From: Dehalococcoidia bacterium
GTDB lineage: Bacteria; Chloroflexota; Dehalococcoidia; GIF9; AB-539-J10
DNA length: 34,151 bases
Direction of reading: 5' to 3'
Assembly: GCA_030602785.1 (NCBI GenBank)
Contig: JAUVZB010000025.1
Span: 1-34,151, forward strand
How positions within the stretch are numbered: the first letter of the stretch is position 1; each line of letters begins with the position of its first letter. The notes beneath the pieces are model-generated. The model did not search any database, had not been told where the DNA came from, and saw only the letters and a program-made list of their open reading frames with translations. Position numbers and translations under genes: made by a program. Positions 2,693 through 25,022 of this stretch are shown one piece after another.

Positions 2693-2907
2693 GGGGCAAG
2701 GTTGCGTTGCCCCCCCCCCGATGCAGACCTGCCGCGTCGTGCCGTTGATACGCCACTCATTACCAGCATTCATGGTCGAGCACCCTGGTGCAGGGGCGGA
2801 CCTCTGCGTCCGCCCGCCACGGATTTGTGCACCGTCGACGGTTGGCTGCCCCAACACCTCCACCTACATCCATCGCGCCCACGACGGGCAGGCGCAGAGG
2901 CCTGCCC
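2693..2907. repeat. Cluster of three palindromic hairpin repeats
   Basis: The 389-bp gap between the AIR-like gene and the next gene holds three hairpins of one design. 2693-2713 has GGGGCAA / TTGCCCC, 2794-2815 has GGGCGGAC / GTCCGCCC, and 2886-2907 has GGGCAGG / CCTGCCC. The GGGC...GCCC base is constant while the inner pairs differ but stay complementary. The remainder of the gap shows no convincing gene. Confidence 0.75.
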
Positions 2908-3057
2908 CTGCATTCCACGTGCCGCCTCTCCCCCGCGGGGAGGCTATCGGAGAAACAGCTCCTTCGACATTGGTACGAAGGAGGCGAGCCTGTGCCTCTG
3001 GTAGAATCTACGACGTCATGCCGGACGTTGCGCGGCATGCATCGAAAGGAGGAGCTG

Positions 3058-3579
3058 ATGACGTTCACCCCATCCGAAATCGAGACCCTGGACCGAATCG
3101 AGCAAGATGCGGGGGCCTGCCTTGTGGAGATGCACGGTTGTGCCCGCTGCACGCTGCTCGCCATCGCACGCAACCTCGAACTTGCTGATGACGACTCTTT
3201 GGATACTGCGCTTCGTGCCGGTATCACTCTGTCCGGCGGAATCGCAGGGACGCGCAACCACTGTGGCGCATTGCTGGGCGGAATCATGGCGATAGGAATT
3301 GAAGGAATCAAGGGCAGTCCGCGCGAGGCCAATGCCGCGGAGAAGAAGGTGGCGTCCGATGTGTCGAAGCGGTTCTACCGCCGTTTTGAGCGAGAGATAG
3401 GCCATGCCCTGTGCCGCGATATCCGCGACGCCGCGCTGGGGCGGCCATTCGACACTTCCGACCCGGACGAGGCCCGCAAGTATGAGGAGGCAGGTGGCGT
3501 GCAGATGTGCAGTGGGGTTGTGGGGAAGGGTGCGCGCATGGCTGCCGAGATGATACTGGAGCTGCGGCGCGGCGCGTAG
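3058..3579 (+). CDS. C_GCAxxG_C_C family putative redox protein, copy 1
   Basis: This 173-residue soluble protein matches the C_GCAxxG_C_C family (small cysteine-rich proteins thought to be redox active). Conserved cysteines are C21, C28 and C31 in the MHGCARC block, C69 in GTRNHCGALLGGIMAIG, and two later ones in LCRDIRD and QMCSGVVG. The start is fixed by AAAGGAGG seven bases upstream of ATG 3058. It has no signal peptide. A close paralogue lies at 11514-12032 with the same cysteine pattern and about 60% identity by eye. The partner or electron carrier is not evident. It stands alone, downstream of a hairpin-repeat region. Confidence 0.85.
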   Translation: MTFTPSEIETLDRIEQDAGACLVEMHGCARCTLLAIARNLELADDDSLDTALRAGITLSGGIAGTRNHCGALLGGIMAIGIEGIKGSPREANAAEKKVASDVSKRFYRRFEREIGHALCRDIRDAALGRPFDTSDPDEARKYEEAGGVQMCSGVVGKGARMAAEMILELRRGA

Positions 3580-3650
3580 CCCTGACGCCCGTGAGGCGCG
3601 TCGGCGTCGCGCAATCGTGTTGGAGTCGTGCAGGCCAGTGGCCGACGGGG

Positions 3651-3965
3651 TTACTGCAGGTCGAGCGCGAAGACGATGGCTTCACGCACCTCTGTCAGCT
3701 TCGCGCCATCGAGAGCTGTGATTGGCGAGTCGAGAAGCGACATCGGTATGGTCAGAATCTGGTCGAGGTTCACGACGCACTGCGATGGCATCCCGTCCTG
3801 GACGGTCAGCTGAACCTCGACCGGGATGTGGCGGATTGTACGTGTGATTGCTGCCACCGTAGCCGCCGTTCGCACTCCGTAGGCGGCATCGCGGGAAAGC
3901 AGCAGTACGGGACGCCGGCCGGCGGGAGCCGGCAGGTTCGCCCACCAAACCTCACCCCGCCGCAC
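3651..3965 (-). CDS. MazF/PemK-family toxin
   Basis: This 104-residue protein has the PemK/MazF fold: the N-terminal RRGEVWWANLPAPAGRRPVLLLSR strand-turn region, a central VEVQLTVQDGMPSQCVVNLDQILTIP, and the SLLDSPITALDGAKLTEVREAI ending. Family members are ribosome-independent or ribosome-dependent mRNA endoribonucleases that halt growth when the antitoxin is lost. It starts with GTG at 3965, whose G is also the last base of the antitoxin's TAG stop, so translation is coupled. A GAGGA at the end of the antitoxin gene can serve as its ribosome site. The pair is a typical type II toxin-antitoxin module. Confidence 0.88.
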   Translation of the reverse strand: MRRGEVWWANLPAPAGRRPVLLLSRDAAYGVRTAATVAAITRTIRHIPVEVQLTVQDGMPSQCVVNLDQILTIPMSLLDSPITALDGAKLTEVREAIVFALDLQ

Positions 3966-4216
3966 TACCAGTCCTCATCGGGGAGCGATTCGGCCACCAG
4001 CGATGCCTGGGTCGCTGCCACAGCGAGTCCCTCCCGACACTTGCGGTAGCCCGCCACGTATGTCTTCTCCTTCCGCCGGGTCTCAAGCTGGTGAAGGTAG
4101 CTTTCGCAGGCCTGCCTGATGAGTGCGGCTCTGCTCTGGCCACGCTGGCTCGACAGCTCATCCAGCTTGTGAAGGAGTTCGCTGCTGACAGGTACCTGTA
4201 CGATTGTGCCCTTCAT
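3965..4216 (-). CDS. Ribbon-helix-helix antitoxin of the MazF pair
   Basis: This 83-residue protein begins MKGTIVQVPVSSELLHKLDELS, a ribbon-helix-helix (CopG/MetJ-like) DNA-binding strand and helix, followed by RGQSRAALIRQACESYLHQLE. The C-terminal half (AATQASLVAESLPDEDW) is acidic and should wrap the toxin. It is expected to neutralise MazF and to repress the operon. The ATG at 4216 has GGAG eight bases upstream; the longer open frame upstream of this ATG contains a toxin remnant rather than a real N-terminus. Its TAG stop overlaps the toxin's GTG by one base. Confidence 0.85.
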   Translation of the reverse strand: MKGTIVQVPVSSELLHKLDELSSQRGQSRAALIRQACESYLHQLETRRKEKTYVAGYRKCREGLAVAATQASLVAESLPDEDW

Positions 4217-11513: not shown

Positions 11514-12032
11514 ATGGTAGCTGAGCCGACCAACAAGGAACTGCTTGACCGTGTAGAGGAGGATGGGGCGAAGTGTGAGAAAGAGATGCACGCGTGCGCG
11601 CGCTGCGCGCTTCTCGCCGTTGCTCGAAACCTCAAGCTGGCCGAGGACGATTGCATTGATGCTGCGTTGAGGACGGCGATACCGCTGAGCGGCGGTATTG
11701 CGGGAACGCGCAACCACTGTGGTGCGCTGGTGGGGGGGATCATGGCGATTGGTCTTGCAATGGTGAAGGGCAATCCTCGCGAGGCCGCCGTCGAGGAGAG
11801 GAAGGCCTCTATGGCGGTTTCTAAACGCTTCTACCGCTGGTTCGAGAAGGAGATTGGCCAGGTGCGCTGCTACGACATCCGGGACGCCGGTCTGGGGCGC
11901 TCCTTTGACACATCCGACCCGGAGGAGACGAAGAAGTTCGAAGCGGCCGGCGGATACGAGCTGTGCAGCGGCGTGGTTGGCAAGGCGGCACGCAAAGCCG
12001 CTGAGATGATTCTCGAGTCGCAGAAAACATAG
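11514..12032 (+). CDS. C_GCAxxG_C_C family putative redox protein, copy 2
   Basis: This 172-residue paralogue of the protein at 3058-3579 shares C21, C28 and C31 (MHACARC), C69 (GTRNHCGALVGGIMAIG) and the late cysteines in RCYDIRD and ELCSGVVG. It also shares the long blocks SGGIAGTRNHCGAL and FDTSDP. It has an extra cysteine (EDDCID) that copy 1 lacks. Copy 2 has A27 where copy 1 has G27, so its motif reads ACARC. Start ATG 11514 has GGAGG upstream. A redox role is inferred from the family. Confidence 0.85.
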   Translation: MVAEPTNKELLDRVEEDGAKCEKEMHACARCALLAVARNLKLAEDDCIDAALRTAIPLSGGIAGTRNHCGALVGGIMAIGLAMVKGNPREAAVEERKASMAVSKRFYRWFEKEIGQVRCYDIRDAGLGRSFDTSDPEETKKFEAAGGYELCSGVVGKAARKAAEMILESQKT

Positions 12033-12147: not shown

Positions 12148-12183
12148 CTAGGGGCAGGCGGTGACTTCAACGCGGTCACGGCC
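12148..12183 (-). pseudogene. Severed 3' end of the GGDEF gene
   Basis: Reading the minus strand from 12183 gives G-RDRVEVTACP and then TAG at 12148-12150. Joined to the interrupted gene (..YRAKEAG) through the shared GGC glycine codon it rebuilds YRAKEAGRDRV, the normal end of a GGDEF domain. This fragment was separated by the IS3 element and is no longer translated with the rest. Confidence 0.85.
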
Positions 12184-12265
12184 TGAGGTGGACCCCATCC
12201 TTAGGACAGGACAGGGGCTAGATTAAGGTGGGGTTCTGCCGCCCTTGGGGCTCCCTTCGATACTA

Positions 12266-12856
12266 TCAGATGAACAGATTGTCGTTGTAGCTCCCCTTCC
12301 CGTCCATGCTGATGCTGATGCCATGCCGCTCCAGCATCCCGGTGAATTCATCGCTGGTGAACTGGCTGCCCTGATCGCTGTTGAAGATCTCCGGCCTCCC
12401 TGTACCCAGGGCCTCCGAAAGCGCGTCGATGCAGAAGCCGACGTCCAGGGTGTTGGACAGACGCCACGCAAGCACGTATCGGCTGTACCAGTCCATGACG
12501 GCCACCAGATACAGGAAACCACGCGCCATGGGAATGAACGTGATGTCCGTCGCCCAGACCTGGTTGGGCGCGCTGATGCTCAGGCCCCTGAGCAGATACG
12601 GAAAACGCCGGTGCGTGGGTGCCGGGATTGTGGTTCTCGGACGCCGGTAGACTGCCCTGAGCCCCATGAGGCGCATCAGTCTCTGCACACGTTTCCGGTT
12701 CACCCTCTGGCCCCGGCTCTGCAGCCATGCGGCCATCTTGCGCGCCCCGTAGAACGGCGTCGCCAGATACTGGCGGTCAATCAGCTTCATGAGAGCGAGA
12801 TCCTCCTCTGCGATTGCCTTCGGCTGGTAGTACAGACCCGACCGGCTGATGCCCAA
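12266..12856 (-). CDS. IS3 OrfB transposase (DDE integrase), C-terminally truncated
   Basis: The product has the HTH_21-like start MGISRSGLYYQP and the rve core: WATDITFIPMARG (first Asp), FNSDQGSQFTSDEF (second Asp), then MDGKGSYNDNLFI and a stop. In intact relatives DN.F.E follows, where the Glu completes DDE, and roughly 60-70 more residues are expected; here both are gone. The same frame is open upstream of 12856 and reads RRHPSLSLVRQC without a start codon. The natural product would therefore be an OrfAB fusion made by -1 frameshifting in the overlap with OrfA, around 12928-13005. No classic A6G slippery site is seen. Confidence 0.85.
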   Translation of the reverse strand: MGISRSGLYYQPKAIAEEDLALMKLIDRQYLATPFYGARKMAAWLQSRGQRVNRKRVQRLMRLMGLRAVYRRPRTTIPAPTHRRFPYLLRGLSISAPNQVWATDITFIPMARGFLYLVAVMDWYSRYVLAWRLSNTLDVGFCIDALSEALGTGRPEIFNSDQGSQFTSDEFTGMLERHGISISMDGKGSYNDNLFI

Positions 12857-12927
12857 CAGCCGGCACTGGCGTACCAGTGACAGCGACGGGTGCCGACGAT
12901 CGATTCCGGCACGCCGTCGCTTCAGGC

Positions 12928-13209
12928 TCAGCGAGCCAACCTGCTCTCCAAGAAATCCCGCTCCACCTTGAGCTGCCCAATGTGCTGGTATAGCTGGGCA
13001 ACCAGGCCATCATCACTCGTCTTCCTTTTCTGGCCCTCGTCGAAAACCCCAGCGGCGCCTTCCACCAGCGCTTTCTTCCACGCACTCACCAGGTTTGGAT
13101 GAACCTCGAACCGGCTGGCCAACTGCGCTACCGTGTCTTCCCCTTTGAGCGCCTCCATGGCAACCTTGGCCTTGAATGCCGGGCTGTGCTTCCTGCGGTT
13201 CCGTTTCAT
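12928..13209 (-). CDS. IS3 OrfA (helix-turn-helix transposase subunit)
   Basis: This 93-residue protein, [23 protein letters not shown] onward, has the HTH_Tnp_1 helix-turn-helix ([21 protein letters not shown]) that binds the terminal repeats. It is followed by a leucine-zipper-like region ([23 protein letters not shown]). ATG 13209 is preceded by AAGGAGCAGGAC. It ends at TGA 12928; the OrfB frame lies one base back (-1). Typical length for the family. Confidence 0.9.
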
Positions 13210-13288
13210 GTCCTGCTCCTTCCGTAGCTCCCTCTATTTTAGGAGCAGAATCCCACTTTAGCCACCTGTCCGAATTTCGGGGTCCATC

Positions 13289-13885
13289 TCAGCCTGCCTC
13301 TTTTGCGCGATAGAGCGCGGCATCGGCCCTGCTGATGAGTGAGTCCTCGTCGTCGCCCTCGCAATACTCCGCCCCGCCGAGGCTGGCAGTGACCTTCAGT
13401 GCGCCGCCGGTGGCGTCGCGGAGCGGAGCTCCACGCAAGGCTTTGCAGACCCTCCGGGCCATGGTGGCCGCACCCGCGGCGTCCGTGCGTGGGAGCAGGA
13501 TGAGGAACTCCTCCCCTCCATAGCGCCCAACGAGGTCTGTCTGTCGCACGCTGCGATGCATGAAGTCGGCGAGGTCAGCCAGGACGCTGTCTCCGACACG
13601 GTGCCCGTGCAGGTCATTGACCTGCTTGAAGTAGTCAATGTCCAACATCACCACAGACAGCGCGCCTTTGTACCGCCTGACGTGCTGCAGCCATTCATTC
13701 AGCTTCTCGAGGATGGAGCGGCGATTGTACAGGCCCGTGAGCGTGTCGTAGTAGGCGAGCTGCTCAAGCTCGGAGGTCTTGGCAGCAAGCTGATCTTCGA
13801 TTGCGACAATCTCGTTCTGGAGTCTGGCAACCTCTGCGCTGAGATCGCGTGGGGTGTGGTCGGAAGGCACAGGCTTTGAGTTCAC
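13289..13885 (-). CDS. Diguanylate cyclase (GGDEF), 3' end cut by an IS3 element
   Basis: This 198-residue cytoplasmic protein makes cyclic di-GMP from two GTP. A coiled coil (about 15-43) is followed by YYDTLTGLYNRRS and the GGEEF active site at 123-127, with an RQTD inhibitory site (114-117) five residues upstream. The protein stops at ..ADAALYRAKEAG because the TGA at 13289-13291 comes from the first bases of the IS3 terminal repeat. The original gene ran 11 codons further, to 12148. The catalytic residues are intact, so activity may survive. There is no sensor domain. Confidence 0.9.
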   Translation of the reverse strand: MNSKPVPSDHTPRDLSAEVARLQNEIVAIEDQLAAKTSELEQLAYYDTLTGLYNRRSILEKLNEWLQHVRRYKGALSVVMLDIDYFKQVNDLHGHRVGDSVLADLADFMHRSVRQTDLVGRYGGEEFLILLPRTDAAGAATMARRVCKALRGAPLRDATGGALKVTASLGGAEYCEGDDEDSLISRADAALYRAKEAG

Positions 13886-14041
13886 GACACCAGTATACTA
13901 CGCCCTCGGATTGTGGTGGGAGGGGTGCGTCACCGGCTGTAGATGGTCTGCGATTCTGTCCTCCCCTGACCGTTGGGCGAAAGTGTCCGCATGCAGGAGA
14001 AGGCGACGTTGAAAAGGAAGGCCTGGCAGAGGTCGGTTTTC

Positions 14042-14345
14042 TGCAGGGGCGAGGCATGCCTCGCCCGTCGGGTTGCGTGCCCTTCACGGTTGTGTTGGCC
14101 TTCGCGGCGTTGTGTGACGATAGGGTGGCGGGCCAGGCATGCCTGCCTTCTGCATTCAGACCGTCCCACGTCCACCGGGCACGTGCAACGTGCCCCTGTC
14201 GGAACTACCCCCTTGGTCCTGACCCACACGGGCGGATCTGTAAGGGCGATGCATGCGTCGCCCGTAGGGCAGTGTGCCACTCACGGGTGTGCCGGCCTTT
14301 ACTGGCTTGTGTGACGACATGGCGGTGGGGCAGCATTCCTGCCCC
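14042..14345. repeat. Degenerate tandem duplication with paired hairpins
   Basis: The 956-bp gap 13886-14841 has no credible gene. Two units of about 105 bp, 14042-14147 and 14239-14345, align at roughly 70% by eye. Each starts with a hairpin (perfect palindrome GGGCGAGGCATGCCTCGCCC at 14047-14066; GGGCGATGCATGCGTCGCCC at 14244-14263). Each then has a shared linker containing TTGTGTGACGA and ends with a second hairpin (14134-14145; GGGGCAG / CTGCCCC at 14327-14345). Between the units lies another hairpin, GGGCACGT / ACGTGCCC (14177-14195). Confidence 0.7.
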
Positions 14346-14518
14346 CCTACACCGGAATCCTCCCAAGCGGACGTCTTCGCTGGACACCAATATCAGACAC
14401 GCGGATGTGTGGACTGCCGTGGCATCCGAGGGGGACTCTAACTGCTGGCCCGCAGCGGGCATCGCCGGCGCAGGTGCTTGCTCACGAAGGTGTTTGTGGA
14501 CTGCGGGCTGATGCGAAC

Positions 14519-23161: not shown

Positions 23162-23724
23162 GATTTCTCGATACGAATCGTCTTGATGACGTCGCCCTGC
23201 TTGATATCCAGCAACACGAGCATGCTCTCAACGAGTTGGCCGAACACCGAGTGCTTCCCGTCGAGGTGTGGCTGCGGCTCATACGTGATGAAGAACTGGG
23301 ACCCGTTCGTGCCCGGTCAGGAGTTCGCCATCGAGAGAGTTCCTGTTCCGTGCTTGTGTGCGCTGAACTCATCCTCGAACTTGTAGCCGGGTCCGCCTGT
23401 TCCGGTCGCCGTGGGGTCGCCTCCCTGGGCCATGAAACCCGCAATCACCCTGTGGAACGTGGTGTTGTCGTAGAAGCCTTCCTCAGCCAGGAAGACAAAA
23501 CTATTGACTGTCACAGGAGCGTCCGCTGCAAACAACTCGCACACGAGGTCTCCCTTCTCCGTCTCGATGATGGCGGTGTAGTTGGCACTTGTGTCGATAG
23601 TCATTGGCGGCGGCGATGTGTATGTCATTCGTTCCTTCTCCTCTTGTTCTGTGCATGCGGCAAGGCAGGGCAACAGGACGGCAAGCGCAACAATGACCCC
23701 TGTTCGAACCAGTTTCGTGCTCAT
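23158..23724 (-). pseudogene. Cyclophilin-type peptidyl-prolyl isomerase lipoprotein broken by an in-frame TGA
   Basis: The N-terminal 135 residues carry a lipoprotein signal (..LLPCLAAC, C24) and the cyclophilin core FHRVIAGFMAQGGDPTATG (catalytic R92) through GTGTLSMANS. A TGA at 23317-23319 then stops translation. The next 52 codons are in the same frame and read [20 protein letters not shown] and ..[10 protein letters not shown], the remaining conserved cyclophilin half, ending at TAG 23158-23160. Relatives have Gly at the TGA position ([16 protein letters not shown]), so a single GGA-to-TGA change explains it. It could be a nonsense mutation, sequencing error or read-through. The start overlaps the GGDEF stop by four bases (ATGA). 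Confidence 0.85.
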
Positions 23725-25022
23725 CTGTGAAGGTGCTCCTTTCCGTTGTGTCTGCGCGCTTGCTTCTGTCGGTACATGAGGTCGTCAGCCCTCGAGAGCA
23801 CCTGATCGAGGCTCTCCGAGAGTAGCGGGTCGTATGTTGCCACGCCGATACTGAGGCTGATGTCGTAGGGGCGCCCGGCGTTGTCAGCAAATGCTATCAG
23901 ATTTCTCTCGAGACGCATACGCAGCATCCCGACGCTTGTGTCATCGCTCTCGATGGCGAGAACGGCGAACTCATCGCCACCGATGCGGGCAACGATATCA
24001 GACTCCCTGAATGTCTCACTCAGGATTGCCGCCACGTCAGTCAGAGCACGGTCGCCCGCCTGGTGACCGAGCGTATCGTTGATGCTCTTCATCGCGTTGA
24101 GGTCACAGTAGAAGAGCAGCATGTTGCGGCCGCTGCGCTGGCTCAACCGGGTCTGCTGTTCAGCGAGTGAGAAGAAGCCGCGGCGGTTGTAGAGTCCCGT
24201 GAGGTCGTCTCTCAGCGACATGGTGCGCATGTGGACTTCGGCTTCTTTGAGATTGTGAAACAGCAAGTCGTACGGCTTGGTGAAACCTGTTTCGACGAAC
24301 GCCTTGTAGATGAGGTAGAACGACACGGCAAGCAGGAGTTGGCCGAGCGCCTGCCATGGACCTGACAGCAAGTGTGTCAGTCCGAAGGCGACGGAGGCGA
24401 GCGCGGTCACAGCAATCGCGGCCGAGACAAGTGCCAGCACCCGTGGATGGAATCTGTGGCCCGAGTGCTTCAGCAGCGCGAGAGCTGCAACCAGGATACC
24501 GACCGTGACACAGTAGCTCGCGGAGGTGAAGAGGGTGGGATTGCCGTCCGGTGTGTAGCAGCACGGCCGGGAGGCCAGCAGGATGGCTGCAACAACGGCT
24601 GCAGCCACTGCCAGGAAGGACAGGAGCGTTGGGAGAGGGCGCAGCTTGCGCTGCACGAAGGCCACGGCCAGAAGCAAAGACACCGCCTGGAGGTAGCGAC
24701 CTGCCAGCAGGGCGCGAGTCGAAGTCTCGATTCCCCCGGGCACGAGGCCGAACCACGGGTGGCTGAACATGTGTAGCACCTCGATGATGGCGAGGGCAAG
24801 ACATGCCATGCCGAGCAGGAGGAAGTAGTCCGAGTCGAGGAATGCTCGTGCGTTCGACGCGAACATGAACACAGCGAAGAGGAGCGTGATAGAGAGGACT
24901 TCAATGAGCGCAAGAAGAAGCGACTCGCTCCAGAGTCCAGTGAGGCAGATTCCTCCGAGGACAAGGGTGATGGGCAGCAAGCTTCGCAGTGTCTCTTTCG
25001 AGCCTGACAACCCTGCCACCAC
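23721..25022 (-). CDS. Membrane diguanylate cyclase (MASE3-like sensor plus GGDEF)
   Basis: This 433-residue protein has an N-terminal membrane region of about seven or eight spans (roughly 12-245), with the ALAIIEVLHMFSHPWFGL motif resembling a MASE3 sensor. A GGDEF domain follows, with LRDDLTGLYNRRGF (270-283), GGDEF at 348-352 and an inhibitory RESD at 339-342. It should make c-di-GMP in response to a membrane or redox signal. GTG 25022 is the only reasonable start, but no strong ribosome site precedes it. It follows the Asp23/AmaP/DUF2273 genes and overlaps the cyclophilin gene. Confidence 0.88.
   Translation of the reverse strand: MVAGLSGSKETLRSLLPITLVLGGICLTGLWSESLLLALIEVLSITLLFAVFMFASNARAFLDSDYFLLLGMACLALAIIEVLHMFSHPWFGLVPGGIETSTRALLAGRYLQAVSLLLAVAFVQRKLRPLPTLLSFLAVAAAVVAAILLASRPCCYTPDGNPTLFTSASYCVTVGILVAALALLKHSGHRFHPRVLALVSAAIAVTALASVAFGLTHLLSGPWQALGQLLLAVSFYLIYKAFVETGFTKPYDLLFHNLKEAEVHMRTMSLRDDLTGLYNRRGFFSLAEQQTRLSQRSGRNMLLFYCDLNAMKSINDTLGHQAGDRALTDVAAILSETFRESDIVARIGGDEFAVLAIESDDTSVGMLRMRLERNLIAFADNAGRPYDISLSIGVATYDPLLSESLDQVLSRADDLMYRQKQARRHNGKEHLHR

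Follow-up and report, generated by a model that had tools for sequence, protein, structure and literature searches.

An internally deleted IS3-family element supplies the stop codon of a truncated diguanylate cyclase gene in a Dehalococcoidia genome

In the MAG of a Dehalococcoidia bacterium (Chloroflexota) a copy of an IS3-family insertion sequence (IS) interrupts the 3' end of a diguanylate cyclase gene, and the first three bases of the element form the new stop codon of this gene. The cyclase ends with ...ALYRAKEAG, and its ten-residue tail RDRVEVTACP lies severed on the far side of the element. The IS copy has itself lost 190 bp of its transposase frame orfB, a deletion that the initial annotation of this DNA had overlooked and that we add here. 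We regard the explanation as a whole, in which the shortened cyclase would also be impaired, as very probable. The window, i.e., the whole stretch of DNA analysed, is the complete contig C112 of 34,151 bp from a genome (G000) of 2.57 Mb in 141 contigs. The locus is known from this one MAG contig, at the level of the assembly, and the insertion may or may not be fixed. All features are listed in Table 1.

Read on the minus strand from its GTG start at 13885, the cyclase frame is open up to the element, its last codon GGC being the duplicated triplet and the following TGA the first three bases of the IS. If the element and one GCC are removed, the two flanks rejoin to an ending YRAKEAGRDRVEVTACP-stop, in longer form ...ALYRAKEAGRDRVEVTACP-stop. 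The transposase frames and the interrupted gene share one orientation. The initial annotation had placed an IS3 element inside a diguanylate cyclase gene at 12148-13885, had assigned the TGA behind ..YRAKEAG to the terminal repeat and had proposed a GCC duplication with a join that restores YRAKEAGRDRV; the minus-strand frame 13885-13289, the inverted repeats with GCC on both sides, the IS3 transposase orfB and the rejoined flanks agree with it on each of these points, and the interval is right for the gene plus the element. The same holds for its statement that GGEEF and RQTD are retained. The Pfam GGDEF profile is matched by residues 44-198 (profile positions 1-158 of 161, E=5e-45), with GGEEF at residues 123-127 and the metal-binding DxD site, MLDID, at 80-84 being nearly all invariant in the alignment, and with the inhibitory RxxD site as RQTD at 114-117. 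What the IS cuts off is the terminal GR(N/D)xV segment, a conserved although not strictly defining part of the domain, which is present in the restored frame.

Table 1. Features of the interrupted cyclase locus and of related IS copies. Positions refer to the window unless another contig is given.
Feature	Position	Strand	Basis or remark
Convergent C_GCAxxG_C_C gene, synteny marker	11514..12032	+	conserved neighbour
Severed cyclase 3' end, (G)RDRVEVTACP + TAG	12148..12180	-	seen in sequence
Target-site duplication GCC, far copy	12181..12183		seen in sequence
IS3-family insertion sequence copy, internally deleted	12184..13291 (1108 bp)	-	inverted repeats, GCC duplication, orfB score, related copies in same genome and genus
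Left terminal inverted repeat TGAGGTGGACCCC	12184..12196	+	repeat search
orfB of the IS, truncated after ...SYNDNLFI	12266..12856	-	HTH_21 and rve present, rve_3/rve_2 missing
Approximate junction of the 190-bp orfB deletion, GTTCATC joined to TGATAGTATCG	12267..12272	-	alignment with G006:C174 and G000:C24 copies
orfA of the IS, 93 aa, helix-turn-helix	12928..13209	-	Pfam HTH_Tnp_1, E=7.9e-9
Right terminal inverted repeat TGAGATGGACCCC	13279..13291	-	TGA at 13289-13291 is the new stop codon
Target-site duplication GCC, near copy	13292..13294		codes the last residue (Gly) of the truncated protein
Truncated diguanylate cyclase, N-terminal helix + GGDEF, 198 aa	13289..13885	-	Pfam, AlphaFold; IS-supplied stop
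Second IS copy	L028 (G000:C24:96000-103000), about 2840-4065		open orfA/orfB including catalytic Glu
Short IS-end matches, 49-63 bp	L029 (G000:C26:371-431), L030 (G000:C74:1895-1957), L031 (G000:C138:13925-13985)		

The ends of the element are well defined. Read inwards, the terminal repeats are 13 bp long and identical except for one position, and TGAGGTGGACCCC occurs exactly once in the window, its sole partner with one mismatch being the other end of the IS. Inverted 13-mer pairs lying 500-2500 bp apart were searched for across the window, allowing at most one mismatch. Of the 84 pairs that came out, matching 3-bp flanks are found in two, and of these the pair at 12184-13291 alone has TG...CA ends and an enclosed transposase. 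Target duplications in the IS3 family usually measure 3-5 bp, and the GCC found here falls within this range. As in other members of the family, a helix-turn-helix orfA is followed by an orfB with HTH_21 and rve domains, the latter frame scoring 202.7 bits against NCBIfam NF033516 (transpos_IS3, cut-off 160), and the terminal inverted repeats are of the TGA...TCA type. Both ends begin with TGA, and thus every insertion in phase, that is one third of all insertions into a gene, halts translation at once; in the other two phases a stop is reached 32-51 bp from either end.

Alignment with the copy on contig C174 of the related genome G006 places the 190-bp loss within orfB, the first lost codon being that of the catalytic glutamic acid. 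The window frame ends with ...SYNDNLFI-stop compared to ...SYNDNLFIERLWRTVKYEEV in intact copies, in which counting on the sequences gives a D-56-D-35-E triad as in the IS3 family, with the E directly after NLFI. Accordingly complete triads are found in the C24 and G006 relatives and not in the window copy, and rve_3 and rve_2 are detected by Pfam in the intact C24 orfB and are absent here. Because the catalytic Glu is deleted, the copy is non-autonomous and unable to move by its own transposase; it descends from an IS3-family element but is defective and does not count as an autonomous member. A second difference may concern the programmed -1 frameshift between the two genes. In IS3-family elements the usual signal is a slippery run of the A6G type (PMC5771124). 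Here orfB sits in the -1 frame relative to orfA and no A6G run is visible in the orfA/orfB overlap of the window, suggesting that the signal is absent or different from the usual one.

The C24 copy from the same genome is 93% identical to the window IS, and the C174 copy of G006 shows 96% identity over 636 bp. In the C24 copy the right end is altered (TGAGGTGTGCCC) and no alignment is obtained for the left end, so that this copy appears to lack one end. In principle it could still provide transposase in trans, and the C24 and window copies could complement each other. The short matches on C26, C74 and C138 were rejected as full copies on reading and resemble remnants or solo ends. In G006 a member of the same IS family likewise sits close to this gene block, upstream of a sigma-factor gene (L135 on C148, 3427-3542), about 4 kb from the window site and at a different position, and the contig ends inside that IS.

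A comparison with related genomes for an uninterrupted allele, as proposed in the initial annotation, was possible with four genomes of the same genus (G004, G002, G005 and G001), all of which carry an orthologue in the same gene neighbourhood. The orthologues end with GRNKVEITACTL, GRNRVEIAPCPA, GRNRVEVAPFPSATSQ and GRNRVEVAPLPLSSQA, thus continuing past the glycine with GRN- or GRD-type tails, and none of the four stops at KEAG. A G[RK][ND] tail is also present in each of the 43 wider relatives compared, which come from many phyla, the Arg after the tail glycine being nearly invariant in the alignment. As orthologues and wider relatives alike run on beyond the glycine, a natural KEAG ending without an element, which would have spoken against the insertion, is not what the relatives have. 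In all four genomes the convergent C_GCAxxG_C_C gene and a glyoxalase gene adjoin the cyclase, a methyltransferase gene is nearby in three of them, and DUF4382 genes occur in two of the same-genus stretches read. The cyclase counterpart in G013 (L055), a genome of the same family, shows 51% identity. G003, also from the same genus, keeps the flanking genes, but the stretch read there yielded no GGDEF gene, and hence the gene can apparently be lost and appears dispensable. The closest relative is G006, with 85–90% DNA identity over the stretches compared. Its contig C148 starts within a repeat that precedes the cyclase, and the gene itself is not assembled, so that G006 gives no date for the insertion.

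In order to judge the condition of the truncated protein we looked at its model and its substitutions. AlphaFold models it confidently (pLDDT 94.7), the last helix being where the chain stops, and therefore it may fold; for a full-length relative the model shows the tail as a short strand (residues 171-173). Two window-specific changes, E144R and R147C, affect positions conserved in 12 of 14 wider relatives. Altogether 13 window-specific substitutions compare to seven specific for G004, numbers too small to prove relaxed constraint. The open frame, together with a divergence at codon positions 1 and 2 versus position 3 that resembles other orthologue pairs, gives no support for a long decay. 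Just before the start codon (13886-13900, minus strand) lies a TATACT motif common to all five genomes (orthologues L009-L012). As the motif is kept, the gene is probably still transcribed, possibly from a conserved promoter giving a leaderless message.

Several other readings of the locus have to be weighed. A natural end of the gene at KEAG, with the match beyond the element arising by chance, has a negligible probability: the GGDEF profile is almost complete at this point, which is all that speaks for it, and it is refuted by the orthologue tails, which closely match the restored one, e.g., GRNKVEITACTL versus GRDRVEVTACP. An assembly artefact with the IS misjoined onto two unrelated flanks is very improbable. 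Repeats are often mis-assembled and further copies and fragments of this IS occur in the genome, but the flanks put together give a conserved ending in frame, the 3-bp duplications on either side match, and the convergent gene beside the severed tail also adjoins the cyclase in the relatives. A full-length or longer protein might still be made if the population were mixed and contained an intact allele, or if the new stop were read through, and we consider this unlikely. The first variant draws on the nature of the genome, a MAG of 141 contigs in which repeats are often collapsed, but no second allele was found in the assembly; in the second the ribosome would run into IS sequence and not into the cyclase tail.

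More serious is the reading that the truncated cyclase is still active, as the initial annotation had suggested as one possibility, perhaps with a different regulation, and that the IS has trimmed a dispensable tail. GGEEF, RQTD and the DxD site are intact, the core is modelled with high confidence, the frame is otherwise undamaged and the profile is covered almost to its end, all of which fit an active enzyme. Against this stand the retention of the tail in every syntenic orthologue and every wider relative, its strand in the full-length model and the non-conservative changes at conserved sites of the window copy, and we rate the reading as possible but not probable. A literature search on how C-terminal truncation affects GGDEF proteins gave no direct report. 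Taken together, these comparisons mildly favour reduced or lost activity, which seems roughly twice as probable as retained activity. An adaptive insertion, in which a non-autonomous IS removed the C-terminal strand and selection in this lineage favoured the product, either as a differently regulated cyclase or as a c-di-GMP sensor without catalytic activity, appears quite improbable.

According to the explanation that we prefer, an IS3-family element inserted near the 3' end of a stand-alone GGDEF gene, at a GCC that overlaps the codons for Gly and Arg, and duplicated these 3 bp. It landed in phase, so that its TGA ended the protein at ...KEAG and the tail was lost. The sequences show these steps and the deletion in orfB directly. 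The 190 bp of orfB may have been lost either before the insertion, in which case the element moved in trans, or afterwards. The resulting cyclase would, as we infer, be impaired with its catalytic core intact, since the GGDEF fold is without its nearly invariant end segment.

Stop codons supplied by the IS are familiar from insertion sequences generally, and as a gene disruption the case is ordinary, if with a neat stop, and part of the routine genome evolution of an uncultured member of the Dehalococcoidia. For cyclase genes the literature search gave one near precedent, DR_A0342 of Deinococcus radiodurans ATCC 13939K, a GGDEF-domain gene split in two by IS2621, with the HD-GYP and GGDEF domains remaining whole and the activity only presumed (PMC11219805). 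Both cases share a GGDEF gene interrupted by an IS, with the catalytic domains intact and activity presumed only. In contrast to DR_A0342, with its two parts and whole domains, the window cyclase loses the last strand of the GGDEF domain itself. In its architecture, an N-terminal helix followed by GGDEF, it resembles the stand-alone coiled-coil cyclases SiaD, DgcB from Caulobacter and WspR. The best structural matches were SiaD (7e6g) and the GGDEF structures 3ign and 5llx, yet the window protein stops where these chains continue and is without their terminal segment. The locus represents a clean and checkable example of a gene that is terminated by the end bases of an insertion sequence, and a natural test of whether GGDEF domains need their conserved terminal strand for activity.

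Some further observations were made in the window. A second C_GCAxxG_C_C-type redox protein is encoded at 2788-3579 (+) and resembles by eye the one at 11514-12032 (+); G004 also has two such copies near the cyclase. A dispersed palindrome-rich intergenic repeat of the GGGCGAGGCATGCCTCGCCC type, which has 82 matches across G000 and dozens in G006, occupies 13990-14370; in G006 contig C148 starts inside it, just upstream of the expected cyclase. A second diguanylate cyclase, with a MASE3 membrane sensor domain, is located at 23721-25022 (-). At 23317-23724 (-) an in-frame TGA interrupts the gene of a peptidyl-prolyl isomerase of the cyclophilin type (Pfam Pro_isomerase, profile positions 3-96 of 159). 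Its frame runs on past this codon, and a nonsense mutation or a sequencing error would account for the stop.
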